Below, piece after piece: positions 17,720 to 46,103 of a DNA stretch of 47,149 nucleotides. The notes under the pieces were generated by a model. That model saw nothing but the letters and a program-made list of their open reading frames with translations. It was not told the origin of the DNA and ran no database searches. The stretch's first letter is position 1, and every line of letters begins with the position of its first letter. This DNA is from an uncultured Hyphomonadaceae bacterium (lineage in GTDB: Bacteria > Pseudomonadota > Alphaproteobacteria > Caulobacterales > Hyphomonadaceae): the NCBI GenBank assembly GCA_938011445.1, contig CALLUH010000216.1, positions 1-47,149 of the forward strand, read 5' to 3'. The position numbers were made by a program, and so were the translations under genes.

Positions 17720-17900
17720 ATGTCCCTCCGAAGATTTAGAATCGCTCTATTTGCCTTCGCAGGTCAAGCGCCCCTGTGCGCGTTGCACCCTCCCCTCAAT
17801 GTGATGATTTGTGAGGTGCCCGAAAAAGCGGACGGGCGCAAACTGCGCTTTCCGTAGGCCGGAGCTGTCCGGTATGCAACAAAACGTCAGTGGGTGTGAC

Positions 17901-19370
17901 ATGAAGGCTACTCTATCGCTTCAAAATCTGTCGGCGCTGTTTGGGGCTGGCGTTTTGGGACTCGCTGTTTTTGTTGGCGCATCGGCAAAGGCGGCGTCCG
18001 GAGACCAAGAGAGACAGAGTGCGCCAGAGGCCGAGCTAGAGCGCGCTGCGTCATCATCAAGCAGCAGCCAGACACAGCTTACCAAATATTCGCGGCGGCA
18101 TTTTGAGGCCCTGATGCGGGCGCGCGACGATGCAACGATCAAGCAATTATTGTCCGAGATCGAGAGTGACTGGAGCGCAGCCTATATTCCCGCGCTCCTG
18201 GAGACCGCGAGCTATGCCGCAGCCTTTGTGACGGAGCGGGAGATTTTTGCGCTGTTAAAACGCCAGACCGGACAGGACATCCGCGCAGACACAAATCTCT
18301 GGTATGAATGGTGGTGGAACCAGCCCGCTTTGCAGACCGCCGATTATGGCAATTTCAAAGCTGATCTTTACCGGCAGATTGACCAGCGTTTCGGGCCTTA
18401 TTTCAAGGATCGTCAGGAGACCGCGCTCATCCGGCTGGACGAAGTGCGCTGGGGTGGTGTGGTGCAGGACGGGATACCGCCGCTTCGGGGGCCAGACATG
18501 CTTGATGCGCAGGAGGCCGATTATCTTGATAAGGATGATATTGTCTTTGGTATCGAGATTAATGGCGATGCGCGGGCTTATCCAAAACGGATCCTGGCTT
18601 GGCACGAGATGTTCGTCGATACGGTCGGCGGGGTCGATATTGCGGGCGTTTATTGTACGCTGTGCGGAACGGTTATCCCCTATAAAACTGAATTTGAGGG
18701 AACGGATTTTACGCTGGGCACGTCCGGATTTCTCTATCGCTCGAATAAATTGATGTATGATGCGGACACGCAATCGCTGTGGAATACGCTCACAGGGGAA
18801 CCCGTTATCGGTCCCTTGGCGGGCAAAGGCATCGCGCTGGAACATTTGTCTGTTGTGACGACGAGTTGGGGCGAATGGAAGCGCCGTCATCCCGACACCC
18901 AGGTGCTCTCGCTCGAAACGGGGCATCGGCGCGACTATGGCGAGGGGGTTGCATATCAGGAGTATTTTGCGACCGATCGGCTGATGTTCAACACGCCATT
19001 TCGGGACACAAGGCTGAAGAACAAGCAAGAAGTGCTGGCGCTGAGATTTGCAGGCGCGCCCGGACAACAATTGGCGATTGATACCGATTTTCTCAACCAG
19101 AACCCGATTTATGCCGGAGCAATCGGCCCGCAGCGCTTTGTCGTTCTGACCGATCAGAGCGGCGCAAACCGGGTCTATGATCCGGTAGATATCGAATTTG
19201 TTGCCTATGATGGCGATCGCACTGTTACCGATCGCACCGGGGCGCTCTGGCAGCTTAGCGAAAGCGCATTAACCATGTCCGACGGCACCAGCATTGACCG
19301 TCTGCCCTATCATCGCGCCTTCTGGTTTGGCTGGAAGGCCGCATTTCCGGACACACAGCTTGTAAAATAA
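17901..19370 (+). CDS. Exported DUF3179 protein
   Basis: A 489-residue protein from the ATG at 17901. A signal peptide ends near GASAKAAS; a Ser-rich spacer and a helical region (about 60-190) precede the DUF3179 domain (about 200-460). The domain is recognised by YPKRILAWHEM, GVYCTLCGTVIPY with a close cysteine pair, LGTSGFLYRSNKLMYD, QSLWNTLTGEPVIGPLAG and WGEWKRRHPDTQVL. DUF3179 proteins are found in archaea and bacteria; their function is unknown, and the conserved Cys-x2-Cys with neighbouring histidine may bind a metal. No operon partner is visible. An alternative start upstream would lack a signal peptide. Confidence 0.88.
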   Translation: MKATLSLQNLSALFGAGVLGLAVFVGASAKAASGDQERQSAPEAELERAASSSSSSQTQLTKYSRRHFEALMRARDDATIKQLLSEIESDWSAAYIPALLETASYAAAFVTEREIFALLKRQTGQDIRADTNLWYEWWWNQPALQTADYGNFKADLYRQIDQRFGPYFKDRQETALIRLDEVRWGGVVQDGIPPLRGPDMLDAQEADYLDKDDIVFGIEINGDARAYPKRILAWHEMFVDTVGGVDIAGVYCTLCGTVIPYKTEFEGTDFTLGTSGFLYRSNKLMYDADTQSLWNTLTGEPVIGPLAGKGIALEHLSVVTTSWGEWKRRHPDTQVLSLETGHRRDYGEGVAYQEYFATDRLMFNTPFRDTRLKNKQEVLALRFAGAPGQQLAIDTDFLNQNPIYAGAIGPQRFVVLTDQSGANRVYDPVDIEFVAYDGDRTVTDRTGALWQLSESALTMSDGTSIDRLPYHRAFWFGWKAAFPDTQLVK

Positions 19371-24738: not shown

Positions 24739-27201
24739 TTAGGCGACCATGGGCTGATCCAGCAGAATGTCGGTTGTCTTGACATCGCCGCTCGCTTGCA
24801 AAGGCAGCATGCAATGGACTTGCGTGCCCTCTCCCAGGGTCGATTTGAGTTTCACCGTACCGCCATGCAATTCGACAAAGTGTTTGACGAGGGCAAGGCC
24901 GAGGCCTGCGCCGCGATGATCGCTTGAGCTAAAGCTGTCAAAGGTTGCCACTTGCTTGTCGGCTTCTATGCCGCGGCCATTGTCGCGCACGATGATGCAG
25001 GCTTGGGCGCCAACGCGCTGGGCGGAAACGACAATTTCGCCGCCCTCATCGGTAAAGCGCATGGCATTGGAGAACAGGTTGAACAGGACTTGCCGGATGC
25101 GACGTTCATCAGCTTTGACGATGCCCAGATCGCCGGACAGTTCGGCGCGCACCGTGATCTGGGTGTCTTCAGCCTTGGACACCACCATTTCGACGGAGTC
25201 TTCGATCACCGCTTCAAGGTCAAACTCGGACAGATCAAGATCAATACCGCCCGCCTCGATCATTGCGAGATCAAGGATATTCTCGATCAATTTTGACAAA
25301 TGGTCAGATGCCGACAAGATGGAGCGTACAAAATCAAGCTGGCGGTCTGACAGGGTGTCATTACGCTGGCTTTCGAGAAACTCCGCATAGCCGAGAATGG
25401 TCGTTAGCGGTGAGCGCAGCTGATAGGAGACGTTCTGGACAAATTCGGTCTTCAGGCGGTCCGCAGCGGCGTGGGCTTCAGCACGTTCGCGCAAGGCACG
25501 CTCGACACTGCGCGTCGCGGTGACATCGGCAAAGGCGATCAAAGTGTTGCCGTCAGGCAGAGGATGGGTGAGATAGGTCAGTGTGGTGATCTTCTCGTCA
25601 TCTTCAACCAGACGCATTTCGCCCTTCGTTTCGGTGCGCGCTTCGGGGCTGATGTCAGTGACATGCCCTTTGATGGCGCTCCAGACGGCGCGGTCATAGA
25701 AAAGCGGGATGCATTTGTCCACGATTGCGTCATAATCCGGACCGTCCCGGAGATCTTCCTCTTCAAGTTTCCAAAGTGTACGGAACGCCTTGTTGGACAA
25801 TCTCAAGCGACCATCGCCGCCAAACACGGCGCAGGCTTCATGCAGATTGTCGAGGGTCGCCGCCTGCGTATTGATCAAAGCATTATAACGGGTTTGCAGG
25901 CTCAGCTCGCCGGTAATGTCCCGGAACAGGAGCAATAGTCCGCCAAGCGGGTGGCGTTGGCGTGTGATTGACAGGGTTTTCCCATCAGTGAGCGACCAGG
26001 TGTCCTCTGCGATGCCGGAAATGTCGAGATAGTGTGCCAGCTCATCGGCGCGCCATGCGGGATAGTCCGTCCGCGATGGCAGTTTGCCGCGTTCGCGCAG
26101 CCGGTCCAGCAATTGGCCATGAGCCGGTTTTTCGAGCAGAAATCCTTCATCGAGATCCCAAATCTCGGCAAAAGCGCGATTGTGGAACATGAGCCGGCGA
26201 TCTGGGCCAAAAATAGCCACCGCATCGGTGACATGGTTCAGCGTCTCACCATGAGCCTGAACGTGGCGGTCAAGTTCTGCCCGGGCCGCTTCCTGTTCGG
26301 TGACATCAAAGGCCATGGCCCCGGCTCCGCCTGATAGCGGGAAGCTGAGCACGCGCATAGCGCGGCGCTCTTTATTGATCGCGATAGACCGGGTTTCATC
26401 TATATCGCGGCCCTGATTGATGGTGATCTTCATTTGCTCATTGGCTTTTTCATCGAGCATAAGTTGGCGCTCAAGGGCGGTGTCGAGCGTTGGCGCTTCG
26501 ACGGCATCGAGATAAGCCTGATTGGCCCATTGCAATTTACCCATGCCGGAGACACGCCAGGCGGGAAATGGTGACTTGCGCAGCATTTCAAGGAAAGCGG
26601 TGGGATCACTGGCGATGACCTGACGTGCTTCTTCAAGGCGACCACGGGCAGCGCTTTCTTCGATGCCGCGCGTTGTGGCGTCGGTAATCCAGACAACGGC
26701 GCGGGCGCCTGCCGTGCGGCCGTCCGCGTCCAGATGCGCTTCGCCGGGGCCAATAATTTTCAAGGAAAAAGCAGTTCCGTCCTGACGCAATTCTTTCAGC
26801 CGATGACGCAGAGTGGTGTCCTGCTTGACGCTGTCGCGCGCTTCGAGGTCGGCGAGCCCTTCAATGATGCGCACGGCTGGGTCGACCGAAATGGCCTCAT
26901 CGGTATATTTGAGCAGGCCTGCAAGCGCCGCGGGCGATCCATAAAGCCGGGGCGGGGTTATATCATCGCCGTCATTTTCAAGCGCATCGCCTTCCCAGAC
27001 CAGAATAACGCCCGGATGAGCCCCGAATACGCTGTCAGCGCGGGCCAATTGTTCATCAAGCTGGCTGGCGCGTTCGCGGAATTTCTTGGCCGCGCCGCGC
27101 GCACCATCGGAGATGCGTAAGGCCCATAACAAAGAAGCCAAGGACAAGGCCGCCGTGCCAAGTGCGAGGATAAACGGAACCTGATCGCCAGATAGGGTCA
27201 T
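24739..27201 (-). CDS. divL: DivL-type cell-cycle pseudo-histidine kinase
   Basis: An 820-residue protein: one N-terminal membrane segment (about 8-29), PAS-like regions at about 50-165, 200-300, 315-430 and 440-560, a dimerisation domain and an ATPase domain. The H-box reads VQNVSYQLRSPLTTILGY: Tyr593 replaces the phospho-accepting histidine. That substitution, with this domain plan, is the mark of DivL, which in Caulobacter binds DivK and controls the CckA-CtrA relay. The ATP site is kept: N box NLFSNAMRFT, G1 RDNGRGI, G2 GAGLGLALVK. GGGAG precedes the ATG. A CtrA-type box lies 78 bases upstream. The tyrosine codon (TAT) is at 25423-25425. Confidence 0.93.
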   Translation of the reverse strand: MTLSGDQVPFILALGTAALSLASLLWALRISDGARGAAKKFRERASQLDEQLARADSVFGAHPGVILVWEGDALENDGDDITPPRLYGSPAALAGLLKYTDEAISVDPAVRIIEGLADLEARDSVKQDTTLRHRLKELRQDGTAFSLKIIGPGEAHLDADGRTAGARAVVWITDATTRGIEESAARGRLEEARQVIASDPTAFLEMLRKSPFPAWRVSGMGKLQWANQAYLDAVEAPTLDTALERQLMLDEKANEQMKITINQGRDIDETRSIAINKERRAMRVLSFPLSGGAGAMAFDVTEQEAARAELDRHVQAHGETLNHVTDAVAIFGPDRRLMFHNRAFAEIWDLDEGFLLEKPAHGQLLDRLRERGKLPSRTDYPAWRADELAHYLDISGIAEDTWSLTDGKTLSITRQRHPLGGLLLLFRDITGELSLQTRYNALINTQAATLDNLHEACAVFGGDGRLRLSNKAFRTLWKLEEEDLRDGPDYDAIVDKCIPLFYDRAVWSAIKGHVTDISPEARTETKGEMRLVEDDEKITTLTYLTHPLPDGNTLIAFADVTATRSVERALRERAEAHAAADRLKTEFVQNVSYQLRSPLTTILGYAEFLESQRNDTLSDRQLDFVRSILSASDHLSKLIENILDLAMIEAGGIDLDLSEFDLEAVIEDSVEMVVSKAEDTQITVRAELSGDLGIVKADERRIRQVLFNLFSNAMRFTDEGGEIVVSAQRVGAQACIIVRDNGRGIEADKQVATFDSFSSSDHRGAGLGLALVKHFVELHGGTVKLKSTLGEGTQVHCMLPLQASGDVKTTDILLDQPMVA

Positions 27202-27299: not shown

Positions 27300-28355
27300 T
27301 TAATCATTTGGCAGTTGGCTGATCCATTGGTTGATGAGGGTGACTCCGTTTTCGTCAATGAGGCGGCGTCCAAGTTCCGGCATTGCGACGCCGGCTTCAG
27401 CCGAAGCCATGCGGAAAGACAGGATGGACCGGTCGGGCGCGCCCGGCGCTATTATGCGGTTTAGCTGACCTGCGCCCCGTCCGGCGGCGGTTGGGTGTTT
27501 GCCGATGCCAAGCTTTACAAGTTCGTCTTCATCCCAGCCGAGCCAGAGGCCGGAATTGGACGCGGCACCATCTGATTTATGGCAATGAGCGCAATTGATG
27601 TCGAGATAGGCGCGCGCTCTGGCGTCGAGGGATGCCTGACCGGCAGCGATAGACGGGATCTGAGCAAAGGCCTCCGGCGCGCCGGAAAGAAGACCCGCTT
27701 CGGTCCAGGCTGCGATCTGATCGGACCCCAGATTGCGAGCCTTGGGGCCAATCGGCGTAATGGCGTTGCCGGATTGATGGCATGTCTTACACTGGTTCTG
27801 GTTTGGCACAGCATATTGAAAAGCCAGAGCCTGCCCCGCCGGAGTGGTGATTTCAATGTCGCGTTTGGCACCGATCGGGGCATAACGGGCTTCGGTGTGA
27901 TCTTCGTTCCAGACATAGGGATAGCCGACCCAGCCTGCTGATTTGTGAATGAGCAGGCGTGTCTCGATGCGTCCTGTTTCGGCATATTCGAAGCTTTTGA
28001 CCAGAACCGAGCCGACCGGAAGCGATAGGACACCGGTTTGGGAATATTGCGCGCGGACGCCCTCTGGAACAAAAACGAGCCGTTTTTTGGAAGCGTGATC
28101 GGAGAATAGCGGATTGATAAGATCATAAGCGCGCACGCGGGCGGCCGGCTTTGTGGCGGCGATGTCGGTAAACAGCCCATAATCGGCGAGCATGGGTGCG
28201 GGGGCATCGGCCAGAATGACGGACAGGTCCGGTTTCGCCCCCTGTGCTGGCCCGGCACACGCGCCCAGGCCGAGCAAGCAGACCAGACCAAGCGCACTGA
28301 CCTGCCAGGGCAGGTCAGTCAGCCAAGCCAATATATGCCTAAGGTTTAACATCAT
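27300..28355 (-). CDS. Dihaem c-type cytochrome lipoprotein (HNE_0200/SO_2930 family)
   Basis: A 351-residue exported protein with a lipoprotein-like signal ending GLGACAG (Cys33). Two haem c motifs are present: CKTCH (Cys189, Cys192, His193) and CAHCH (Cys255, Cys258, His259). Segments PLFSDHASKKRLVFVPEG and RLLIHKSAGWVGYPYVWNED are typical of the family of uncharacterised dihaem proteins first named from Hyphomonas and Shewanella. It starts 17 bases inside the end of the beta-helix gene, the partner that this family is known to accompany. It is likely periplasmic or outer-membrane bound. The electron donor or acceptor is unknown. Confidence 0.88.
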   Translation of the reverse strand: MMLNLRHILAWLTDLPWQVSALGLVCLLGLGACAGPAQGAKPDLSVILADAPAPMLADYGLFTDIAATKPAARVRAYDLINPLFSDHASKKRLVFVPEGVRAQYSQTGVLSLPVGSVLVKSFEYAETGRIETRLLIHKSAGWVGYPYVWNEDHTEARYAPIGAKRDIEITTPAGQALAFQYAVPNQNQCKTCHQSGNAITPIGPKARNLGSDQIAAWTEAGLLSGAPEAFAQIPSIAAGQASLDARARAYLDINCAHCHKSDGAASNSGLWLGWDEDELVKLGIGKHPTAAGRGAGQLNRIIAPGAPDRSILSFRMASAEAGVAMPELGRRLIDENGVTLINQWISQLPND

Positions 28356-29637
28356 GAGCGATCAAGATAGGCCCCGGTTCTTTTACCGGCGTCGCTTGAG
28401 GCCGCGTGGTCGAGGGTGATATGGCCGCCGGATCAAGCGGATAGCTGCCAAGGCCCAGACTGACAAAACCAATCTCTTCAGGCTCGGCGATTACCAGATT
28501 GACCTCCTGAGCGACGGTATCCCCCCAGCCCTGAACACCATCCCAGACAATTTCGGGCAAGCGGCCACCGAGCGGCGTCGCCAAATCTGCAAGCACGCTT
28601 TGGGGGTCGTCACCGCCACCGGAATAGTCATTGTCGCGTATCACCACATTGCGCGGCAAGGGATTATAGCGCTCGTCTGCGAACGGATCCTGATAAGCCA
28701 CCAGAAGGATATTGGCGGTGCGATTGTCGGAGAAACTGTTTTCAAAGACGTGAACGTTCTCATTGGCCAGCACCATCACCCCGCTGCCCGATGGCACTGA
28801 GCCGACAATATTGCCCGGCGGTGCGAAATTGTCGGTATTGTTCTGATCAATAATATTGCGGAAGACACGCGTTGAATGTCCACCAATTTGCGGCAAATCG
28901 GGCAGATCAAAGACCAGAATACCGCCCGTATTGTGTCGCGCTGTATTGCCGAAAACGTCTGCGCCAATCGAATTTTCGATCTCGATACCTGCGACATTAT
29001 ATTCGACCAGCGAATTGCGCACAATAATATTGCTGGACTGGCCGACATAAATGCCAGCATCCGATGCCCCCTTGACCGTAACATATTCGATCAACACATC
29101 GGTGCTTTCAACAGGATAGACGCCATAGGCCCCATTGGTTGATAGCGGGCCACCTGTCCATTCGATTGTCAGGTCGCGATAGGTGATACGATCTGCCCCT
29201 TTGGATTTGATGCCGTCGCCCGCAGTGTCCTGCATGGTGAAATCGCCAAGAACCACATTGTCGGACGTGACCAGCAAGCCTTCACCCGACCCTTCCTGCC
29301 CTTTGAAGCTTAGCACCGTCCGGCCTTCACCCGAGCCCAGAAGTTTGACACCATCGACATCCAGTGACAGACCGTCGGTGAGGTTAAACAGCCCTTCGGG
29401 CATAATGATTGTGTCCCCCTCATCGGCTGTTATCAGGGCCGTTTGCAGGTTTTCAACGAACTTTTCGTCTGCAGCGAGGGAGATGATGCGGCTGCCATCG
29501 CGTTCGGAGACAATGATCTCCCCAATGGAGTCGGTTTCTTCCTGGGCAAGCTGCGGCGGTGCTTCGGTTTCTGTTCTGCTACAGGCTGCCAGCAAGACAC
29601 TTGCGCTCATGACGAAAAGCAATTTTTTGACTGTCAT
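28339..29637 (-). CDS. Parallel beta-helix repeat lipoprotein
   Basis: A 432-residue lipoprotein; start at the ATG 29637 with AGGGA before it, signal ending LLAACSR (Cys19). After a short lead the protein is a chain of about 20-25-residue beta-helix turns from about residue 60 to 330, with repeated patterns such as NVVLGDFTMQDTAGDGI, DAGIYVGQSSNIIVRNS, VAGIEIENS and NTGGILVFD. Such right-handed helices bind or cleave polysaccharides in other families, but no catalytic set is evident. It overlaps the dihaem cytochrome gene by 17 bases; the two families are known to occur as pairs. The chvG gene ends 89 bases upstream. Confidence 0.88.
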   Translation of the reverse strand: MTVKKLLFVMSASVLLAACSRTETEAPPQLAQEETDSIGEIIVSERDGSRIISLAADEKFVENLQTALITADEGDTIIMPEGLFNLTDGLSLDVDGVKLLGSGEGRTVLSFKGQEGSGEGLLVTSDNVVLGDFTMQDTAGDGIKSKGADRITYRDLTIEWTGGPLSTNGAYGVYPVESTDVLIEYVTVKGASDAGIYVGQSSNIIVRNSLVEYNVAGIEIENSIGADVFGNTARHNTGGILVFDLPDLPQIGGHSTRVFRNIIDQNNTDNFAPPGNIVGSVPSGSGVMVLANENVHVFENSFSDNRTANILLVAYQDPFADERYNPLPRNVVIRDNDYSGGGDDPQSVLADLATPLGGRLPEIVWDGVQGWGDTVAQEVNLVIAEPEEIGFVSLGLGSYPLDPAAISPSTTRPQATPVKEPGPILIAHDVKP

Positions 29638-29726: not shown

Positions 29727-31331
29727 TCACTCAGCCGGCAAGTCGATAATGAAGCGGGCGCCGCCTTCGGGCCGCGTCTGGGCCTCGACCCTGCCCAGAT
29801 GAGTGTCGACAATCTGTTTAACAATAGAGAGGCCAAGGCCCGAATTATTGCCAAAATCGGAGCCTTTGGGCCGATCCGTGTAGAAGCGCTCGAAAATCGC
29901 GGTAAGCTTATCTTCGGGGATGCCCGGTCCGTCATCATCAACAATCAGGCGCGCTGTGGTCTGGGCACCAATTGCAACTTGATGCAGGCTAACCCGCACT
30001 TCGCCATCTGGGGGGGAAAACGAGCGGGCATTGTCGATCAGGTTGCGGATCACTTGACCAAGCGGGCCATCACGGCCACGCACCAGCAGGCCGCCGCCCA
30101 TGGTCTGATCGGAAAATACCACGCGGACACTGGGCGCTTCATGCCCGTCATAAGTGCTTACAATGCCGCCAGCAAAACGCGCAATATCGAGCATAGCGTT
30201 CGGGCTGCGGGTCATTTCAGCCTCAAGGCGGGATGCATTGGAAATATCGGTAATCAGCCGGTCGAGGCGCTGGACATCCTTGGCAATGACTTTGCGCAGT
30301 TTTTCGGTGGCTTTGGGGTCGTGCTTGACCATTTCAGAGGTTTCAACCGCCGACCGGATCGAGGTTAGCGGGTTTTTCAATTCATGGGCGACATCGGCGG
30401 CAAACTGCTCATTGGCTGTAATCCGGTCGAGCAGCGTACCTGTCATGGCATCAACAGACTGGGCGAGATAGCCAATTTCATCCTTGCGTTTGGTGATTTG
30501 GGGTAGATCGAGGCGTTCGGAGCGGCCTGTGCGCACGCGGTCGGCGGCGATTGCGAGCCGGCGCAGGGGACGGGCAATGCCAAGGGTCAGCAGAGCCGAG
30601 GTAACGAGCGCGACAAGCATAGCAACACCGACGAAGGGGATGAGCGCGGTGCGTTCGGCCCTGACGATTTCTTCAACATCGCTGGCCTCAAGGGTTAAGA
30701 CGCCCACCACAGCGGAGACGCGCTGGATCGGAACAGACACGGAGATAACCCGTTGGCCTCTATCGGAGAAGCGCTGGCTGGCTGCTTCGGCTCCGGTCAG
30801 CGCGGCTTGAAATTCTTCCTCAAAAGTTTGCGTGCGCACCGCGTCGCCGCCCCTATTCGGCACAAGCGCCGAGAAAACGCCCTCAGTGGTTCCCGAAAGC
30901 CCCGCCACCCAGCGCTGAACGGCGCTTGGTTCACGCAGAGGCGGCAAGGCAGAGACATCCACGCGCTCGGACAGAAATACGCTGTCGGCAATTACCTCAC
31001 CATCGCGCAAAGACACGCGGGCACGCACGGTAATCGGCAAAGCAAGCGAGCGGATCGTGTCTCGTGCCAGATCAATATCGAGTGCCGGTTCCGGCTGGCC
31101 TATTGTTGCCCCTTCGCCCAGCAGATTGGTGAAAATCTCGGCCTGACCGATCAGATCCTGCTTTTTCGAGACAACCAGGCCGGCGCGCATCTCGTTGAGC
31201 ACCATGGCGCCCGCGATCAAAACGGCCAATCCTGCCATATTCGACGCCAGAATCAGCCGCGCAATCCGCGAGCCGAACATGCCCGCAGCGCGGCGGCGTA
31301 ATTTTGCATTGGGACGGGGGAGACGGGCCAT
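29727..31331 (-). CDS. chvG: ChvG/ExoS-type sensor histidine kinase
   Basis: A 534-residue sensor. A membrane segment at about 25-45, a periplasmic sensor of the ChvG type (about 50-225, beginning NEMRAGLVVSKKQDLIGQAEI), a second membrane segment at about 229-252, HAMP, then the H-box FAADVAHELKNPLTSIRSAVE with His316 and the ATPase domain (NLIDNARSFSP, DDDGPGIPED, NSGLGLSIVKQI). ChvG senses envelope or acid stress in host-associated and free-living alphaproteobacteria and signals to ChvI. The usual neighbour chvI, and hprK, are absent; upstream is a cyclophilin gene 30 bases away on the same strand. Confidence 0.9.
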   Translation of the reverse strand: MARLPRPNAKLRRRAAGMFGSRIARLILASNMAGLAVLIAGAMVLNEMRAGLVVSKKQDLIGQAEIFTNLLGEGATIGQPEPALDIDLARDTIRSLALPITVRARVSLRDGEVIADSVFLSERVDVSALPPLREPSAVQRWVAGLSGTTEGVFSALVPNRGGDAVRTQTFEEEFQAALTGAEAASQRFSDRGQRVISVSVPIQRVSAVVGVLTLEASDVEEIVRAERTALIPFVGVAMLVALVTSALLTLGIARPLRRLAIAADRVRTGRSERLDLPQITKRKDEIGYLAQSVDAMTGTLLDRITANEQFAADVAHELKNPLTSIRSAVETSEMVKHDPKATEKLRKVIAKDVQRLDRLITDISNASRLEAEMTRSPNAMLDIARFAGGIVSTYDGHEAPSVRVVFSDQTMGGGLLVRGRDGPLGQVIRNLIDNARSFSPPDGEVRVSLHQVAIGAQTTARLIVDDDGPGIPEDKLTAIFERFYTDRPKGSDFGNNSGLGLSIVKQIVDTHLGRVEAQTRPEGGARFIIDLPAE

Positions 31332-34359: not shown

Positions 34360-35223
34360 TCAGCCCTCGGTCAAGCCTTTATAAAGCACAGGCCGCCGGT
34401 CGCGGAAGAAGCCCCATGCGGCGCGTTCTTTTGCGATATGACCCAAGTCGAAACGGGCGAGCGCGAAGCCCGTGTCCGTGCGGCCAAGCTCGCTGACAAT
34501 CTCGCCAGCCTCGTCGGCAATAAAGCTTGTGCCATAAAAGACCTGCCCACCCTCATCGCCGATCCGGTTGGCGGCGATGACAGGAACCGTGTTCGAGACC
34601 GCATGGCCAAGCATAGCGCGGCGCCAGCGCGCAGCGGTATCGAGCGAGGCGTCTTGGGGTTCGCTTCCGATGGCGGTCGGATAGAGCAAAAGCTCGGCCC
34701 CAGCCAGCATCATGGCGCGGGCAGCTTCTGGAAACCATTGATCCCAACAAATGCCCACACCGATTTTGCCAAAGCGCGTCTCCCAGACTTTGAAACCGGT
34801 ATTGCCCGGGCGGAAATAGAATTTCTCCTGATAGCCCGGCCCATCGGGAATATGGCTTTTGCGATAGACGCCAAGCGGGGTGCCGTCTGCGTCGATCATC
34901 ACCACAGAATTATAGTATTCCGGCCCATCTTTCTCGAAGATCGAAACGGGGATGACAACACCAAGCTCGGCCGCCAGCGGCGAGAGCGCCCGCACCGCCT
35001 CATGGGTTTGCCAGTCCTGCGCGCGGGCAAATTCGGCCTCGTCCTGATGGCGGCAAAAATACGCCCCGCAAAACAGTTCGGGCGGCAGAACAATATTTGC
35101 ACCCGCCCCGGCCGCGTCGCGGATCATGCTGCAAACAGTGGCGATATTTTCGGTGACGGTTGTCGCGGGCGCAAATTGCAGGGCGGCAATGCAAGGATTG
35201 CGGATGGATTTGTCATCAGTCAT
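34360..35223 (-). CDS. aguB: N-carbamoylputrescine amidase
   Basis: A 287-residue nitrilase-superfamily enzyme that hydrolyses N-carbamoylputrescine to putrescine, CO2 and ammonia. The start MTDDKSIRNP (35223) is chosen since AAGGA lies before it; it overlaps the aguA stop by 8 bases. The triad is Glu49 (LPPELF), Lys122 (YRKSHIP) and Cys159 (GICWDQW), with the family-typical EKFYFRPGNTGF and RRAMLGHAVSN. Length is normal. It is the second gene of aguA-aguB, giving a complete agmatine to putrescine route. Confidence 0.95.
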   Translation of the reverse strand: MTDDKSIRNPCIAALQFAPATTVTENIATVCSMIRDAAGAGANIVLPPELFCGAYFCRHQDEAEFARAQDWQTHEAVRALSPLAAELGVVIPVSIFEKDGPEYYNSVVMIDADGTPLGVYRKSHIPDGPGYQEKFYFRPGNTGFKVWETRFGKIGVGICWDQWFPEAARAMMLAGAELLLYPTAIGSEPQDASLDTAARWRRAMLGHAVSNTVPVIAANRIGDEGGQVFYGTSFIADEAGEIVSELGRTDTGFALARFDLGHIAKERAAWGFFRDRRPVLYKGLTEG

Positions 35224-36226
35224 CTGGCGCATCCTTATCGCTCACGAATTTTGGCACTTGCTGGCTTATACAGTGGAAGCTGCCTCCGCCAGTGAGAACA
35301 TGGTTGGCGTCAAGCGCGATCACCTCAAAATCGGGCAAGGCTTGGGCCAGTGCGCTGCGTGCCTGTTCGCTATAGACCGTTTCATAGCGCGGCATGATAA
35401 CAAGCCCGTTGGCAAAGACAAAATTGACATGACTGGCCGCCAGCAGCGCACCGTCAGAGCCGGTCATCCTGCCGGGCGACGGGATTACTGTAACCTTCAG
35501 GCCCGCCTTGCGCAAAGTGCGTTCAATCGCGTCCAAGCGCCCGGCATTCGGATCATCCGGCCCGCTGGCAGACTGGCACGCGACATGCCCCGCGCCGATA
35601 AAGCGGGCGACATTATCGACATGGCCGTCGGTATGGTCGGCCACCAGCCCGTCATCGAGCCAGATAATCTCGCCGACACCGAAGGCGGATTTGAGCGCGG
35701 CCTCGGCGTCCTGTTCGGTCCATATATTGCGGTTGGGATTGAGCAGGCAATCGCGTGTGGTCAGCACGCGGCCCTCCCCGTCAAAATCTATCGCGCCGCC
35801 TTCAAGGATAAAGTCGTAGCAGCGAGCTGGCATCCCGCTTGCCTTGACAATCGCCGCGCCAGTCGCCTCGTCACCCGGCATAATAAATTTCCCGCCCCAG
35901 CCATTAAACCCGAATTGCAAGCCGGTTGGCACGCCATCAATCGCAGCAAAGATCGGGCCCGTATCGCGGAACCAGATGTCCCCCATGGGCAGAACATGGA
36001 TGCTGCAATCAGGCCCGCAAATCCGACGGGCAAAGCCTGCATCCGCCTCGGTTCGAACACCAAGATGGACCTTGGTAAAAGGCGCCAAAGTGCGCACAAA
36101 ACTGGCTATTTCGTCACGCGCGCCGTCAAATGCTTCGCCCCAATAATCGGGCATGCAAGGCCAGCCGACCCAGAGGGCGATCTGCTCGGCCCATTCGGGA
36201 TAAAGTTTCATATTTTTCGGGGACAT
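35216..36226 (-). CDS. aguA: Agmatine deiminase
   Basis: A 336-residue guanidine-group-modifying enzyme that makes N-carbamoylputrescine and ammonia from agmatine. Motifs: WVGWPCMPDYWG near the start, DIWFRDTGP, EGGAIDFDGEGRVLTT, DGLVADHTDGHVDNVARF and GGSFHCISQQVP with catalytic Cys319. Length is slightly short of the usual 360-370 but all motifs are present. It overlaps aguB by 8 bases. No agmatine-producing arginine decarboxylase gene is in the window. A GC-rich hairpin with T residues lies in its leader. Confidence 0.95.
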   Translation of the reverse strand: MSPKNMKLYPEWAEQIALWVGWPCMPDYWGEAFDGARDEIASFVRTLAPFTKVHLGVRTEADAGFARRICGPDCSIHVLPMGDIWFRDTGPIFAAIDGVPTGLQFGFNGWGGKFIMPGDEATGAAIVKASGMPARCYDFILEGGAIDFDGEGRVLTTRDCLLNPNRNIWTEQDAEAALKSAFGVGEIIWLDDGLVADHTDGHVDNVARFIGAGHVACQSASGPDDPNAGRLDAIERTLRKAGLKVTVIPSPGRMTGSDGALLAASHVNFVFANGLVIMPRYETVYSEQARSALAQALPDFEVIALDANHVLTGGGSFHCISQQVPKFVSDKDAPDD

Positions 36227-39053: not shown

Positions 39054-41114
39054 CTAGCCGATGACGCGCACTTCAAGGCGGGCGCTTTGGCCACCTTCAT
39101 CCACAAGGGTCAGCGTATAAAAGCCAGGCCCGTCAGGCGTCCAGAGCGGCAGCCCGCCAGCATCGACCGGACATGGCACACCATCAATGTACCATGTCAA
39201 AATCCCTTCCCCGCGTCCGGCCAGAACGAAGCCGCGCGCAGGCTGTCCATCAACCGACCCGCCCCAAAGCTCGGCATTTTTGGGGGGAAACAAAATTTCC
39301 GGCCCCGTGCGGTGCGGCGTGAAGCTGACAAGGGCGGCGGTTGGGCTATGGCGGGAGTCCGCGCGTATCCTGTCGGCATTGGCATCTTCGGCTGCGAGCC
39401 TTGCAGCGGCACGGTCGGCAATCTCGAACAGAATGGGCAAAGCGGCCGAGCGGCCGGTATGGCCCGGTCTCGGCGCGCCATCAGCCCGTCCGACCCAGAC
39501 AATTATGGCACTGTCACCGGATATGCCCGCAGCCCATGCATCGCGGAAGCCATAGGATGTGCCGGTTTTGAAAGCGATTTGCGGGGCGTTTCGGGTCAAC
39601 CGTCCGGGAATGCGGCCCGCCGGGCTTGGCGCCTCGCGGAGGATTTTGAGGATGGCGTCCGAGCTTACCGCGCTGAGAAAGCGCTGTCCGGATCGTGCCC
39701 CAGCGTCTGCCAATTGATCTTCATTCCAGATCAGAGGTTTAGCGACGCCACCATCACCAAGGGCGGCATAAAGGACGGCCAGTTCGCGCAGGCTCAGCCC
39801 TGCCCCGCCCAAAGCAAGCGCAAGGCCCGCCTCTCGCCCTGCTCCACCTTGTACGCTCGGCATTGTGCCCGCAACGCGCAATTGGGCGGCAAAGCGTTCC
39901 GGGCCAATCCGGTCGAGGGCGAGGACAGCGGGCACATTGAGCGAGTGTTGCAGGGCTTCGGCGATGGTTACATCGCCACGAAAGCTGCGGTCAAAATTTT
40001 CAGGCTGATAGGCGGCAAAGCGTTTGGGTAGATCGGAAATGACCGTGCCTGGCGCGGCAAATCCATCATCAAAACTCATCGCGTAGATAAATGGTTTAAG
40101 GGTCGAGCCCGGTGAACGTTTGGCGCGGGTCAGGTCAATCCAGCCGCCATCGCGTGCGCGGGACGCCGAGCCAATCATGGCCCGCACTGCACGGCTGGGA
40201 ATATCGACAAGCATGGCAGCGATTTGCACGCGATCGCCAGCAAGGTCAGCGTGTGCACGGATGAGCCCTTCAAGATCGGCTTGTAATCCGGCATCAAGGG
40301 TCGAGCGGGTGTCGCCGCCGCCAGCGGATAAACGGGCCTGAGCGGCGCCGTGCCAGCTTTGCGCGGGAAAGATCTGCCGTTCGGGCAGGCTTGCCATATT
40401 GATCTCGGTCTGCCGGCGGGGCGTTATGACACCAGCCTGCTCAAGCTTTGCAGCGATAAAGGCGCGAGCCTTGCGGGCCCGATCCGGGCGGCGGTCGGGG
40501 CGGCGCATTTCGGGCGATTGGGGCAGGGCGACCAGAAGCGCAATCTCGTCATCGGTCAGCGTCGTAGGCTCATGGCCAAACCAGCCAAGACTTGCCGCAC
40601 GGATGCCTTCAAGATTGCCACCATAGGGTGCCAGCGTGAGATAGAGTTCGAGAATTTCAGTTTTTGACAGACGCCGTTCGAGCTGTGTGGCACGGACCAT
40701 TTCGATCAGCTTGGCGGGGATGTTGCGCGGACGCGGCTCCAAAAGGCGGGCAGTCTGCATGCTGATGGTCGAGCCACCAGAGACAATATGACCGGCGCGC
40801 GCGGAGGTGGCTGCCGCACGGATCATGGCGAGCCAATCCACGCCGGCATGACGATAAAAGCGTTTGTCTTCAATCATGAGCAAGGCGTCAAGGAAAAGCG
40901 GATCAACCTCATCGAGCCGTGCCTGAAACCTCCAGCGACCATCGGGCAGAGCAAAAGCGCGCAAGGGTTTGCCCGTTCTGTCGGTCACCATGGCCGAGCG
41001 TGCGGCAGCTTTGGCAATTGGTGGCGGGAACGCCCAGTCGAGCCCAATAAGCACGATCAGCGCTGCAGCCGCTGCCAGCGCGCTGCGGCGCAGATTAAGC
41101 TGCTTGAGGCTCAT
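39054..41114 (-). CDS. pbpC: Penicillin-binding protein 1C
   Basis: A 686-residue bifunctional peptidoglycan synthase. A membrane anchor (about 10-28) is followed by a GT51 transglycosylase domain with catalytic Glu82 in MIEDKRFYRHAGVDW and GGSTISMQ, a transpeptidase domain with Ser337-x-x-Lys340 (GSTLKPF), and KTGTSYGFRDAWAAG. The last about 80 residues form the PBP1C-specific BiPBP_C domain. The start codon overlaps the end of the alpha-2-macroglobulin gene by 4 bases. PbpC next to an A2M gene is a conserved pair thought to repair the wall when envelope proteases are trapped. Confidence 0.96.
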   Translation of the reverse strand: MSLKQLNLRRSALAAAAALIVLIGLDWAFPPPIAKAAARSAMVTDRTGKPLRAFALPDGRWRFQARLDEVDPLFLDALLMIEDKRFYRHAGVDWLAMIRAAATSARAGHIVSGGSTISMQTARLLEPRPRNIPAKLIEMVRATQLERRLSKTEILELYLTLAPYGGNLEGIRAASLGWFGHEPTTLTDDEIALLVALPQSPEMRRPDRRPDRARKARAFIAAKLEQAGVITPRRQTEINMASLPERQIFPAQSWHGAAQARLSAGGGDTRSTLDAGLQADLEGLIRAHADLAGDRVQIAAMLVDIPSRAVRAMIGSASRARDGGWIDLTRAKRSPGSTLKPFIYAMSFDDGFAAPGTVISDLPKRFAAYQPENFDRSFRGDVTIAEALQHSLNVPAVLALDRIGPERFAAQLRVAGTMPSVQGGAGREAGLALALGGAGLSLRELAVLYAALGDGGVAKPLIWNEDQLADAGARSGQRFLSAVSSDAILKILREAPSPAGRIPGRLTRNAPQIAFKTGTSYGFRDAWAAGISGDSAIIVWVGRADGAPRPGHTGRSAALPILFEIADRAAARLAAEDANADRIRADSRHSPTAALVSFTPHRTGPEILFPPKNAELWGGSVDGQPARGFVLAGRGEGILTWYIDGVPCPVDAGGLPLWTPDGPGFYTLTLVDEGGQSARLEVRVIG

Positions 41115-44100
41115 GGCTTGCCGCCAAGCCCGCCCGTTGACGGCACGATCACCACGCGTCCGGCCGCCGAGCGGGCCGTGACATCGGGGCGGTACATGTC
41201 TTCGGCCGTCGCGCCGGGCAATGTGAACTCGCCGGGCGTCACTGCTCTGACCAGATAGGCGAGGGTGACATCTTTCTCACGCACATCAATCGCAGCGACG
41301 AAGCGGTCATCCTGAGCTTGGGTGGTCTTGGCGCTATCAATTGTGCCAATCCAGTTAAAGGCGCCACTATCGCCATTTTCTACGGCTCCGTCAGCAGGAC
41401 GCAGCACGGTTTCAATTTCAAAACCGGCGGGCAGCAGATCGGCGACAATGAGCGGATTGGTCCGGCGCTGTTGAGGTGAAATATTCAGAACCACCGCAAT
41501 CTGCTCACCCTGACGGATGCGGCCCAAATCTACCCGCCCGCCGGCGATGGTGTGGAAGGTTTTGCGGATCGACAAATCCTGCGAGACCGGCACCGGAGCG
41601 GCGGCAGGCACGCCACGCGCAATCACCGTGCGGAAGAGGGGTTTTTCGCCGCCAAGAGTGAAGCTTGTCTCCGGGCTGATTTGGGCTTCGTCCAAATGAT
41701 AGATCTCTTCATTGTCAAAGCCGCGTCCGAGTCCTTCTGTCTCCACCAGAACGCCATCATCGCCGCCGACAAGACTATTGGTCGCGAGCAGAAGGAAGGC
41801 TTTTTCCTGAGTGGTGAGCATTTCGGGGTCTGGTAATTCATCGCCAAGCTCATCGACGAGATCGGCTACGACATTGTAAAAATCCGTCTCGGCTGCCAGC
41901 GCGAAAACGCCGGCCAGATCGCGGCGCTCGGTTTGGTAATAGTCGCCATTATTTTTGTAGCCGAGCACGCTGATCGCAGAGGCAAAGGCGCTTTTGGCCC
42001 GCGCCCTGTCCCCCATATGACTGAGCGCAGCAGCGATATGGGCCCGCGCCAGAGGGCTTTCGATCTGGTCGAAGCTTCGGTCGTGCAGATAACGCAATCT
42101 CGAAATATCCGCTCGGCCCGCCTTGGCCAGTACATAAAGCGCATAGGCCGACGCGCGCAACATCATTTTCGGTTGCGTCTCACTGTGCGACCGGCTCTCC
42201 CAAACATTGGTGTCATAGCCATAGACCCGCCATGCATCGCCTTGGGAGATACGCAGCAACGATCCATAGGCACGCTCCAGCGCTTCATCGGGAACGGCAT
42301 AGCCCTCGGCTTTTGCGCGATAGAGGAAATCTACGGTATAGGCACCAAGCCAAGGCGATGCGCTGCGATCGCTTTCGCGCCAGAGGCCAAACGCACCGTC
42401 ACCGCTTTGGCGGTTAAGCACCGTATTGATAGCCTGCTGGATGCGGGTGCGCGCGCCTGCCTCAGCCGCTTCGGATTGCGCGCTGCCCAAGCCTGATTGA
42501 CCGACAAGTTGCTCGGCATAGAGCAAGGGCAAGGCGCGGCTGACGGCCTGTTCGGTGCAACCATAGGGGTAGCGGTCAAGTGAGCTGTAGAGGGCGCCTG
42601 CATTTATAGGTAAGCTCGAAAAGCTGACCAGCAGGCTCGCGGAACCTTCGACAAAGCCATTGGTCAGATCCCCGCTCAGCGCATAGGTCTGACCAGGCTC
42701 CATCAGGACACGGGTGACGCGCGAGACCGGCAGAAAAGCCGAGCGTGTTTCAATTGGATAGTCGCGCATGATGGCAAACCCGTCTGGTCCATCTATGCTG
42801 AGCGTCAGGTCGCTAATGCCAATACTGGCCGCTTCTATGCGCAAACGTTCATCGGCGCGCTGGCCCTGTTGCAGAATGCGCGAGACCTCTGTTGTGGACG
42901 CTTTGACAGGACCGTCGCTTGCGAGCTTTGCGCCATAGGCCCCCGCCTCGCCTTCAACATTGTCAATGCTCGCTGTGGCAAAGGCTTCGTCGCCGGGTGC
43001 CAGAAAGCGCGGCAGGATCAGCTCGGTCGGCACTTTGTCGCGCACTGTCATCGCCCGCTCAGCACCTCCAAGGCCGGTTTCCGACCAGACCACGGCGATG
43101 AGCCGCAATTGGCCGTTAAAATCCGGCAGATCGAACGGAATTCGGGCTTTGCCCGAGCGGCCAATATCAACAATGCCGGAAAACAAGGCGACTGTTCTGG
43201 TTGGCACAATGGAAAGACCTTCGCCGCCCAATTGGTCTCCGCCTGTGCGCACTTCGGCAGGCAGGCCCTGATTGGGGTCGAGCAAACGGCCATAATCATC
43301 ATACAGGGACACGCCAAGCGCTTTCTTGCCGAAGAAATGTCTGGCTGCGTCGGGGCTTTGATATTTGGTCAATTGCAGGATGCCTTCATCCACGGCCGCA
43401 AGGGTGAGATAGACGCGTTCGCGCGGCCCACCCTCAACATCAACTGTGACCACTTGCTCCTGACGCGGACGAACAATATCAGGCGCATTGATGGTCACGT
43501 CAAAGCGGCGCTCGGAAACGTCAACGGGAATGTGGGCAACCCCCAAAGCGCGGCGCGGCTTGGCCTGAAAGACCGGATCACGCGGCGAATAGACGGTGAC
43601 CATCACATAGGCCCCCTCGCCCCAGTCTTCAGAGACCGGCAGGCTGATCCGGCTGCCATCTTTGGAAACATCCCGGGTCTGAACGGACAGGACGCGATCG
43701 GTTGCGACCGTAATCTCGGCAATGCCATCATAGGGCGGAGTGATCGCGATTTGCACATCGCGGCCAGTTTGGGCGGGTTCTTCGGGGCCGATCACAGCCA
43801 CCCGGTCGGGCGCTTCGACGCCATCTTCGCCAGCACCTGCACCCCAGCCGACATGAAAGCGCTGACTGGCGGTGCGGCCCTTGCTGGTGATGATCAATTC
43901 ATGCGCGCCATAATCGAGCCCTTCGACCGTGAGCGTGCCGGTCGCGCCTGTCTGCGTGCGGACAAGACCTTCATTGACCGTGCTAACCGAACGCGAGCGA
44001 CGCCAGCGCCAATCGCCATCGCTGCGATACCAGTCATAGTGGTAATCAATACGGATAATCTTCCACTCGAGACCCGCGGCAATCGCTTGGCCATCGGGAT

Positions 44101-46063
44101 TGATGGCGGCAAGCTCGAATGTGTGCGGTTCACCTTTGGGGATGCGGCGTTCGGCGGATCTGATGCCGAGATAGACCTCTTCGGGGCGATATGGAATGCG
44201 CACGCTTTCGGTAACGGCGCGCCCGCCCGGCTCCAGCACGCTGACAATGGCGTTGACGCGCAAGGGGCGTCCTGAGCGGCGCCCTTGCTGACCGGGGTTG
44301 AGCCGGACTGTGGCCTTGCCAGCGCCATCGCTGGTCTGGTCTGGAAATTCGAGGACTTGTTCGGCGAATGCTTCCTCGTGCGTGCCGAACCGGAAGTCGG
44401 CATAGGCGTCGAACGGGCTGGGGTCAGGCTCAATTCGCGCTTGCGAGCGGACCGTCAACCCTGCGCCTGGCGCGCCATAGAGAAAGCGCGTGTCCGCTGT
44501 CAGAGCGCGGACCTCGCCGCCTTTGATCGGGGTCGTTTCGTCACCATCAAGGGCTATGGCAATACGCTGGGGCACAAAATCTTCGACCGAGAAAGCACGA
44601 TTGGCAACAGGGCCGATGCCATCGACATCAATGCTTGCAGTCCAGTTTCCGCGTGCGGCATTTGGTGACAAGGCATAGTCGTACGCCACAGCGCCGCCGT
44701 CGGCATTGTCAAACCGAACGCGATGGGCTTCGAGGCCGTTTGGACGCCGGACAATGATCACACCGGAGCGATCCGTAACCGCCCTGCCCGCCAGATCGCG
44801 GATCAGCCCGGTCAAATGCACCGTCTCGCCCGGACGATAAATGCCCCGCTCGGTATAGACAAAGCCATCTACATCCCCGCGCACAGAGCGCCCGCCTGTG
44901 TCTTCGCTTGCGAGATCGACAGGCGCACGTGTCAGGTCGAGCACGGCGGTGTCACCCTCTGCGCCGTAGGCAAGGATGAGCTTCGGACGCGCGCCACCTG
45001 TTCCTGCCAGAAGTGGCCCCGCAAAACTGAGCCGGCCTGCGGCACTGGTCTGGGCTTCGGCGAGCACATCATTATTGTGCCCGATCAGTTCAACGCGCCG
45101 ACCGCTGACCGGCTGACCCGTTTGCAGGCTGCGCAAAGTCACCTCCATGCCCGCATCGCTGACATAGGCTGACAGCGCCAGATCAGTCATGACAATCCAG
45201 CGCTCGGACGCAGCTGGCTGACCATCGGCCAGGGCGCGACCATCTTCAAGGCGAACAATGTAAGCGCCCGGTTTCAGCTCTCCGATAACATCTGACAGCG
45301 GGAAGACGGTGATAACGGGTGCGTTTTGAGCGCGCACCACCTGCATGCTTCCGGACCAAAGCTCGGTGGCCGTATCGCGGCGCACAAGACCGCCATAATT
45401 ATACTCGCCCTGCCCCGTGCTCGTGCCTGATGTCAAACGTTCAAAAGCCAGAGCGCGGTCATTGACGCGCGACACTTTGATGTTCACCTGATCGACATTG
45501 ACCGTTTCAATCGCCAACCCATCGGCGTCAAGCCGCGGCAGAATGATGCCTGCGCCTTTGAAACCGACATAAGCGGGCCTGTCATCAAAGCTGATCGGGA
45601 CTTCCTCGGTCGTTTTCAGGGCGCGACCATCGGCAGATTGCAGGCCGGATTTCAAAATGGCGGTGCGCTCTTCGCCAAAGCCAAGCCCGCCGACGCAGAG
45701 TTCACGCCCGTCAACACTGAGCGCAGGGCGAAAGGCCGGGCGGAACTCGATATAGTCGCTATAATCCTGTTCTGGCGACAAGGGTGCCGAGAAGACAAAA
45801 CAGGCGCGCGGGGCATCGCCCGTGACATCTATATTGTAGCGGAAATAGGTAAATGCCGCCTCGGCATCCTCGATGGCTTCTTGTCTTTGTCGTTCGCGGC
45901 GCTCGGCGGCGCGTTGATCGGCGCGATTGCGCGGAACGATTTCGCCTTCGGGATATAGGGCGATGTCCTCGGAGCTTGCGGGCTTGTCGTCACCGCCGCA
46001 TGCGGATATGGCCAGCACTGCAGCAATACAGATTAGTCTAAACCAGGTGCGCGAACGCGTCAT
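41111..46063 (-). CDS. yfhM: Bacterial alpha-2-macroglobulin lipoprotein
   Basis: A 1650-residue periplasmic lipoprotein with AGAGGGA before its ATG at 46063 and a signal ending ISACGGD (Cys22). It is the long YfhM-type: many macroglobulin beta-domains (about 60-1000), a bait region near the middle, and an alpha-helical complement-like domain carrying the thioester motif GCTEQ with Cys1169 and Gln1172. The intact Cys-Gln pair suggests that it forms the covalent thioester that traps attacking proteases. It is the first gene of an operon with pbpC (4-base overlap). Confidence 0.95.
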   Translation of the reverse strand: MTRSRTWFRLICIAAVLAISACGGDDKPASSEDIALYPEGEIVPRNRADQRAAERRERQRQEAIEDAEAAFTYFRYNIDVTGDAPRACFVFSAPLSPEQDYSDYIEFRPAFRPALSVDGRELCVGGLGFGEERTAILKSGLQSADGRALKTTEEVPISFDDRPAYVGFKGAGIILPRLDADGLAIETVNVDQVNIKVSRVNDRALAFERLTSGTSTGQGEYNYGGLVRRDTATELWSGSMQVVRAQNAPVITVFPLSDVIGELKPGAYIVRLEDGRALADGQPAASERWIVMTDLALSAYVSDAGMEVTLRSLQTGQPVSGRRVELIGHNNDVLAEAQTSAAGRLSFAGPLLAGTGGARPKLILAYGAEGDTAVLDLTRAPVDLASEDTGGRSVRGDVDGFVYTERGIYRPGETVHLTGLIRDLAGRAVTDRSGVIIVRRPNGLEAHRVRFDNADGGAVAYDYALSPNAARGNWTASIDVDGIGPVANRAFSVEDFVPQRIAIALDGDETTPIKGGEVRALTADTRFLYGAPGAGLTVRSQARIEPDPSPFDAYADFRFGTHEEAFAEQVLEFPDQTSDGAGKATVRLNPGQQGRRSGRPLRVNAIVSVLEPGGRAVTESVRIPYRPEEVYLGIRSAERRIPKGEPHTFELAAINPDGQAIAAGLEWKIIRIDYHYDWYRSDGDWRWRRSRSVSTVNEGLVRTQTGATGTLTVEGLDYGAHELIITSKGRTASQRFHVGWGAGAGEDGVEAPDRVAVIGPEEPAQTGRDVQIAITPPYDGIAEITVATDRVLSVQTRDVSKDGSRISLPVSEDWGEGAYVMVTVYSPRDPVFQAKPRRALGVAHIPVDVSERRFDVTINAPDIVRPRQEQVVTVDVEGGPRERVYLTLAAVDEGILQLTKYQSPDAARHFFGKKALGVSLYDDYGRLLDPNQGLPAEVRTGGDQLGGEGLSIVPTRTVALFSGIVDIGRSGKARIPFDLPDFNGQLRLIAVVWSETGLGGAERAMTVRDKVPTELILPRFLAPGDEAFATASIDNVEGEAGAYGAKLASDGPVKASTTEVSRILQQGQRADERLRIEAASIGISDLTLSIDGPDGFAIMRDYPIETRSAFLPVSRVTRVLMEPGQTYALSGDLTNGFVEGSASLLVSFSSLPINAGALYSSLDRYPYGCTEQAVSRALPLLYAEQLVGQSGLGSAQSEAAEAGARTRIQQAINTVLNRQSGDGAFGLWRESDRSASPWLGAYTVDFLYRAKAEGYAVPDEALERAYGSLLRISQGDAWRVYGYDTNVWESRSHSETQPKMMLRASAYALYVLAKAGRADISRLRYLHDRSFDQIESPLARAHIAAALSHMGDRARAKSAFASAISVLGYKNNGDYYQTERRDLAGVFALAAETDFYNVVADLVDELGDELPDPEMLTTQEKAFLLLATNSLVGGDDGVLVETEGLGRGFDNEEIYHLDEAQISPETSFTLGGEKPLFRTVIARGVPAAAPVPVSQDLSIRKTFHTIAGGRVDLGRIRQGEQIAVVLNISPQQRRTNPLIVADLLPAGFEIETVLRPADGAVENGDSGAFNWIGTIDSAKTTQAQDDRFVAAIDVREKDVTLAYLVRAVTPGEFTLPGATAEDMYRPDVTARSAAGRVVIVPSTGGLGGKP

Positions 46064-46103
46064 GGTGATCCCTCTCGGTTTTAGCATTTTTTATTAATAG
46101 CCT

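Follow-up and report, generated by a model that had tools for sequence, protein, structure and literature searches.

A beta-helix family coupled to haem c, examined from an overlapping beta-helix and dihaem cytochrome gene pair of an uncultured Hyphomonadaceae bacterium

We studied a pair of overlapping genes on a 47,149-nucleotide contig of an uncultured Hyphomonadaceae bacterium (CALLUH010000216.1; the whole stretch is called the window below). One gene encodes an exported right-handed beta-helix protein of family TIGR03805 and the other a dihaem c-type cytochrome of family TIGR03806. Both families are known but uncharacterised, and the TIGRFAM entries record that their members occur as two neighbouring genes whose function is unknown; the pair studied here is an ordinary example, and our literature search found no functional study of the module. 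The more interesting result is a rule that extends beyond the window: every TIGR03805 helix above the family cut-off in our sample was coupled to haem c.

The two families were searched independently in 398 Pseudomonadota genomes, comprising the window's own genome and others that were at least 90% complete. An ordinary TIGR03806 copy or a fusion was present in 47 genomes, about 12% of the sample, and TIGR03805 lay at the same locus in all 47 (Fisher p ~6e-55, uncorrected for phylogeny, related genomes not being independent). Apart from these, strong TIGR03806 matches fell solely within giant proteins, in internal or C-terminal regions (genomes G204, G165 and G314). The module was also found in Bacteroidota, SAR86, Neomarinimicrobiota and Binatia, and of 80 named loci spread over several phyla, the helix adjoined or was fused to the cytochrome in 77, the exceptions being L125, L129 and L138. 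A search of viral contigs returned no relative of the cytochrome. The first-pass annotation of this DNA had held that the two families pair across bacteria, and had proposed co-occurrence as a check; the 47 genomes bear the claim out, and the genes are not found apart in most genomes.

The gene order was equally constant, with the helix ahead of the cytochrome in every pair and in every natural fusion. Most orthologous pairs overlapped by 1-4 bases or were separated by fewer than about 60 bases, and the 17-base overlap in the window is typical and nothing special. Fusions with the helix at the N-terminus were identified in L134 (Candidatus Binatia), G184, G236, G276, G202, G078, G169 and G361, that is, in several separate lineages. 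Moreover, loci L155 and L156 carried such a fusion together with a second TIGR03806 copy nearby, with transposase-like genes between the two in L156.

The natural fusion from L134 (802 residues) was then used for structure prediction. The model had a predicted local distance difference test score (pLDDT) of 86.8 and a predicted template modelling score (pTM) of 0.87, with a disordered linker, and was built from an alignment with only seven naturally paired rows. Because randomly placed halves would be expected to give a pTM of about 0.5, the model implies a defined interface and domain arrangement. Joint structure prediction had been the other check proposed at the outset, with the lack of a predicted interface as the adverse result; run on the natural fusion, it pointed to an interface. 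From the fusions, the co-conservation and the fusion model we infer a stable complex, and the association of helix and cytochrome as a complex is well supported.

Above-cut-off TIGR03805 proteins were detected in 53 genomes and were coupled to haem c in all of them, through TIGR03806 in 47 and otherwise in six (G124, G196, G264, G266, G273 and G294). In each of these six, the helix protein bore a CXXCH motif of its own at the C-terminus, and the gene 5′ of it encoded a two-CXXCH protein, with a CCP_MauG match in both of the two that were scanned. In five of the six, the MauG-type gene was itself preceded by a gene for a further dihaem cytochrome, the exception being L178, where none was called. 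The best NCBIfam match of the MauG-type protein of L176 was MbnH, at 224 bits and thus below the cut-off of 363. TIGR03805 helices reach haem c by three architectures: the two-gene pair, the TIGR03806 fusion, and a monohaem fusion accompanied by a MauG/MbnH-like enzyme. We searched the literature and found no description of a haem-c-linked helix with a MauG-type neighbour. The loci of this third kind (L176-L181) belong to Gammaproteobacteria and one alphaproteobacterium, and TonB receptor-like and AraC-like genes are close by in several of them.

In the window, hmmscan matched the beta-helix protein to TIGR03805 with 412.4 bits (cut-off 141.5, E=1.1e-123) and the cytochrome to TIGR03806 with 352.1 bits (cut-off 313.3, E=2.5e-105), and Pfam Beta_helix matched the former with 61 bits. 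The beta-helix protein begins with MTVKKLLFVMSASVLLAAC, and a GAGGG motif lies 5′ of its ATG. The cytochrome holds exactly two CXXCH motifs, at residues 189-193 and 255-259. Each gene is present in a single copy in the window's genome, and the closest named relatives are Hyphomonas and Henriciella, which point to a Hyphomonadaceae genome as the most likely source of the window. These results confirmed two overlapping exported proteins on the minus strand, one a beta-helix and one with two haem c sites, as had been noted before (Table 1). A scan for sigma-70 promoters and terminators gave no signal beyond chance.

Table 1. Positions of the gene pair and of its predicted features within the window
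Feature	Position	Strand	Remarks
Beta-helix gene (TIGR03805)	28339-29637	-	ATG start, 432 residues; hmmscan match at residues 64-368
Predicted beta-helix signal peptide and lipobox LAAC	29575-29637	-	Cys21, Ser at +2; by sequence inspection
Cytochrome gene (TIGR03806, SO2930 family dihaem c-type)	27300-28355	-	351 residues
Predicted cytochrome signal peptide and lipobox LGAC	28257-28355	-	Cys33, Ala at +2; by sequence inspection
17-base overlap of the beta-helix and cytochrome frames	28339-28355	-	Recomputed from the gene coordinates
Helix rungs with W160, N168, Y171, Y174, D193, Y197, Q200, E219, E221 and N222	28972-29160	-	Assigned by conservation
Haem 1 site CKTCH (C189, C192, H193)	27777-27791	-	Invariant in 117/117 domains
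Haem 2 site CAHCH (C255, H257, C258, H259)	27579-27593	-	C, C and H in 117/117 domains
Met325, predicted distal ligand of haem 2	27381-27383	-	Invariant in 117/117 domains

Conservation on the helix was concentrated in a patch running from W160 to N222, whose residues were present in 99-100 of about 101 paired helices and, for the most part, also in seven of seven fusions and in all six MauG-linked helices. Y171, D193, Y197, E219, E221, N222 and several rung Asn residues were conserved across paired, fused and MauG-linked helices. Among 101 paired helices W160 was kept in 99, the other two having a Tyr and a gap, and it was present in all seven fusions; the segment that holds it is missing from the MauG-linked branch. 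No invariant His, Cys or Met was identified on the paired helices, an absence that speaks against both a NosD- or MopE-like copper site and alginate-epimerase catalysis. The solved folds nearest to the helix, compared through the homologous fusion, were the A-modules of AlgE4 and AlgE6 (TMt 0.60-0.61, root-mean-square deviation 3.4-3.5), together with RbmB and lyases of polysaccharide lyase family 6 (PL6). A sequence search of solved structures with the helix gave only weak partial profile matches, to a PL6 lyase and AlgE4. In the profile alignment, SDAGIYVGQS of the helix stood opposite SGYGFDPHEQT of AlgE, a weak placement at -0.8 bits; we take YGFDPH to be the catalytic Tyr-Asp-His motif of AlgE.

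For the cytochrome, residue conservation was counted over 117 domains. Both CXXCH motifs and Met325 were invariant, H257, which lies inside the haem 2 motif, was kept in 115, and no other Met or His was invariant outside the motifs. Since Met325 is invariant, haem 2 looks like a His/Met electron-transfer haem of the kind seen in class I cytochrome c. Candidates for the distal ligand of haem 1 would be K120, Y147 and H257. The AlphaFold2 model of the window cytochrome (pLDDT 88.8, pTM 0.83) contained an N-terminal beta domain; a comparison of this model with solved structures gave no significant fold match, a sequence search of solved structures found no relative, and a Pfam scan gave weak Cytochrom_C matches only and none to CCP_MauG.

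The same cytochrome module occurs in another setting. A TIGR03806-like domain is fused to a glucose/sorbosone dehydrogenase (GSDH) domain in the giant proteins of L161, L174, L175 and L182, and in L129 (Chitinophaga-labelled) the cytochrome gene lies 12 bases ahead of a GSDH gene. The giant proteins share the dihaem module of the pair, with its haem motifs and Met, but have no beta-helix, do not retain K286 and part of K90, R92 and R133, and score below the TIGR03806 cut-off (234 vs 313 bits for L161). Because the module is found with GSDH domains, these contexts suggest that it takes electrons from oxidation reactions. No GSDH domain was detected in either protein of the window pair by Pfam scan. 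GSDH genes were present in 45 of the 47 pair genomes and in 221 of the 351 others (p 7e-7, uncorrected for phylogeny).

The first-pass annotation had described both proteins as apparently lipid-anchored. This holds for the window, where both lipoboxes were read from the sequence, but not for the families at large, in which only about a quarter of the relatives would be anchored. A heuristic lipobox scan of 100 pairs, which missed the window's own helix and hence overcounts mixed cases, classed 19 pairs as having the motif in both proteins, 72 as having it in neither protein and nine as mixed; the 72 included many Sphingomonadales and Erythrobacteraceae loci. As the presence of a lipobox co-varies between the partners, both probably go to the same place. 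Judged by these motifs, lipid anchoring, and hence a role at the surface, is not general.

Our favoured reading, which we put forward tentatively and rate at somewhat less than an even chance, is that the pair forms an exported redox complex of two subunits, with the helix holding a ligand and the cytochrome as the electron outlet. The beta-helix would serve for docking and for holding the ligand, which its fold suggests is probably carbohydrate-like. The dihaem cytochrome would sit on the helix and pass electrons from the bound substrate to the cytochrome c pool and on to the respiratory chain. Electrons would leave through haem 2 (His/Met), and the entry or reactive site may be haem 1, which lacks a conserved Met ligand and comes after the N-terminal beta domain with its many invariant polar residues. 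An oxidative direction of electron flow is suggested by analogy with the use of the cytochrome module beside sugar-dehydrogenase-like domains. The earlier idea that a redox protein is coupled to a helix that binds a polymer gains support from the co-location in 47 of 47 genomes, the fusions, the pTM of 0.87 and the uronate-lyase and epimerase folds. The surface electron transfer that it offered as one outcome is weakened as a general role. Oxidative attack on a polymer may occur, but the catalytic set of the similar epimerases and lyases is not kept, the family having no invariant His.

Several observations weigh against the two-subunit reading. No constant third gene was found, the immediate neighbours differing by lineage. 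The GSDH link is loose, since GSDH genes are common anyway. PqqE, a marker of pyrroloquinoline quinone (PQQ) synthesis, occurred in 6 of the 47 pair genomes and in 85 of the 351 others, so that this synthesis is not enriched. The lack of an invariant His means that nothing in the helix sequence points to lyase or epimerase activity. The fusion model was based on no more than seven naturally paired rows. The rarity of PqqE would make the pair independent of home-made PQQ; a PQQ dependence of the pair is unsupported by the PqqE distribution, and a search of the window's genome did not find PqqE. Among the immediate neighbours, TonB receptors accounted for 10 and TetR regulators for seven of 119 scanned. 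Receptor type was considered as a clue to the ligand and proved uninformative, as the adjoining receptors all matched the broad TonB-siderophore model below its cut-off.

We also weighed whether the cytochrome is a generic acceptor, taking electrons from diffusible periplasmic dehydrogenases of the GSDH or quinohaemoprotein type, with the helix merely tethering or stabilising it. The fusion of the module to GSDH in four large proteins and its place beside GSDH in L129 fit this idea, as do a PQQ-domain lipoprotein with one CXXCH in the window (8999-11221) and the single GSDH in its genome. Yet no dehydrogenase gene is a constant neighbour of the pairs, PQQ synthesis is present in only 6 of 47 pair genomes, and the many invariant surface-type residues of the helix would be needless for a pure tether; we consider this explanation unlikely. 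A maturation pair would instead have the dihaem protein act as an oxidase on Trp or Tyr residues of the helix, the modified helix being the functional product, for example as a metal site. MauG modifies methylamine dehydrogenase in this manner, and a like role has been proposed for MbnH/SACCP on MbnP/MopE. The related helix branch, which shares an operon with a CCP_MauG enzyme matched best by MbnH, the presence of Trp160 in 106 of the 108 helices that are paired or fused together with the Tyr171/Tyr174/Tyr197 cluster invariant there, and a haem 1 without a conserved Met would all suit such chemistry, and MbnP/MbnH is a similar exported two-gene pair (PMC3621798). But TIGR03806 has no CCP_MauG match and the window's genome has no CCP_MauG at all, the Trp160 segment is absent from the MauG-linked branch itself, and a copper site would find no conserved His, Cys or Met in the helix, which leaves maturation distinctly unlikely in our judgement.

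Terminal electron transfer at the outer membrane, in which a surface cytochrome on a helix stalk would reduce minerals, electrodes or dissolved acceptors, appears to us quite improbable too. In its favour, the fusion and second cytochrome of L155 and L156 stand in what would be the context of SO_2931/SO_2930, and the residues at +2 in the window (Ser and Ala) are compatible with outer-membrane sorting. But neither partner has a detected lipobox in 72 of 100 pairs and the cytochrome has just two haems, and for these two reasons surface transfer is weakened as a general role. A search for MtrB/PioB porins gave no match in the window's genome, nor any in the control genomes. SO_2931, which we presume to be the fusion form seen in L155 and L156, reportedly did not restore metal reduction when it was added back alone. 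In deletion strains SO2931 is missing along with further cytochrome genes, and no effect was assigned to SO2931 alone (PMC5829830), which tells against surface transfer.

Returning to the two-subunit redox complex, we note that it could extend to all TIGR03805 helices as a general class of haem-coupled beta-helix oxidoreductases, in which the invariant Asp/Tyr/Glu/Asn patch would be a new redox-active or ligand site that oxidises envelope or environmental glycans without PQQ, flavin or copper. This wider proposal is speculative and, on balance, improbable. If a beta-helix oxidoreductase did prove true, the envelope redox enzymes would gain a new class, and a role would be found for SO_2931, the unexplained one of five outer-membrane cytochromes in a model electroactive bacterium. 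With a haem c link for each above-cut-off TIGR03805 helix in the sample, an annotation that was vague becomes a claim open to testing.

Sensor histidine kinase genes lie on both sides of the pair, at 29727-31331 and 24739-27201, both on the minus strand. The first is ChvG-like, at 588 bits under the ChvG cut-off of 740, and the second is a PAS-domain kinase; the PAS kinase also lies 3′ of the pair in Henriciella L066 (64% identity) and is not found there in most other loci. Elsewhere in the window, 8999-11221 (minus strand) encodes a quinohaemoprotein-like lipoprotein, a beta-propeller dehydrogenase of the PQQ type that carries a CXXCH at its C-terminus, although the PqqE search was negative. 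The region 39054-46087 (minus strand) holds a bacterial alpha-2-macroglobulin (A2M) gene (1658 residues) and a penicillin-binding protein with BiPBP_C, the usual A2M/PBP1C pair. At 34360-36226 (minus strand), an agmatine-deiminase-type (PAD_porph) gene and, from its sequence appearance, a carbon-nitrogen hydrolase-like gene probably form a polyamine pair, and 17811-19370 (plus strand) encodes a DUF3179 protein of 519 residues with a GTG start.

Compared with known systems, the pair resembles MbnP/MbnH (MopE/SACCP, CorA/CorB), for in both cases two genes encode an exported beta-rich protein and its dihaem partner. It differs in that TIGR03806 is no MauG/CCP homologue by profile, the helix has no conserved His ligands and the haem motifs are about 66 residues apart. 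The window cytochrome matched TIGR03806 only, an MbnH-like match being restricted to the distant helix branch, and membership of MauG/CCP was rejected on the missing Pfam CCP_MauG match. NosD, a periplasmic protein of nitrous oxide reductase maturation, is likewise a right-handed beta-helix, to which the window helix is weakly similar by profile (31.3 bits; Pfam NosD 39.6 bits). The window helix, unlike NosD, has no conserved His, Met or Cys and does have a cytochrome partner, and at 31.3 bits against a cut-off of 300 it was not assigned to that family. AlgE4/AlgE6, RbmB and the PL6 lyases are its closest solved folds, but identity to AlgE is about 17%, the epimerase catalytic set is not kept; with no invariant His among the paired helices, the YGFDPH motif of an AlgE-type alginate epimerase is not matched. 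A conduit of the Mtr type uses a surface cytochrome of about ten haems, whereas the window cytochrome has only two CXXCH motifs. It is the TIGR03805/TIGR03806 pair itself (beta_helix_1 and chp_HNE_0200) that the window pair matches with no important difference, in passing the same cut-offs and in order, adjacency, strand and export signals.
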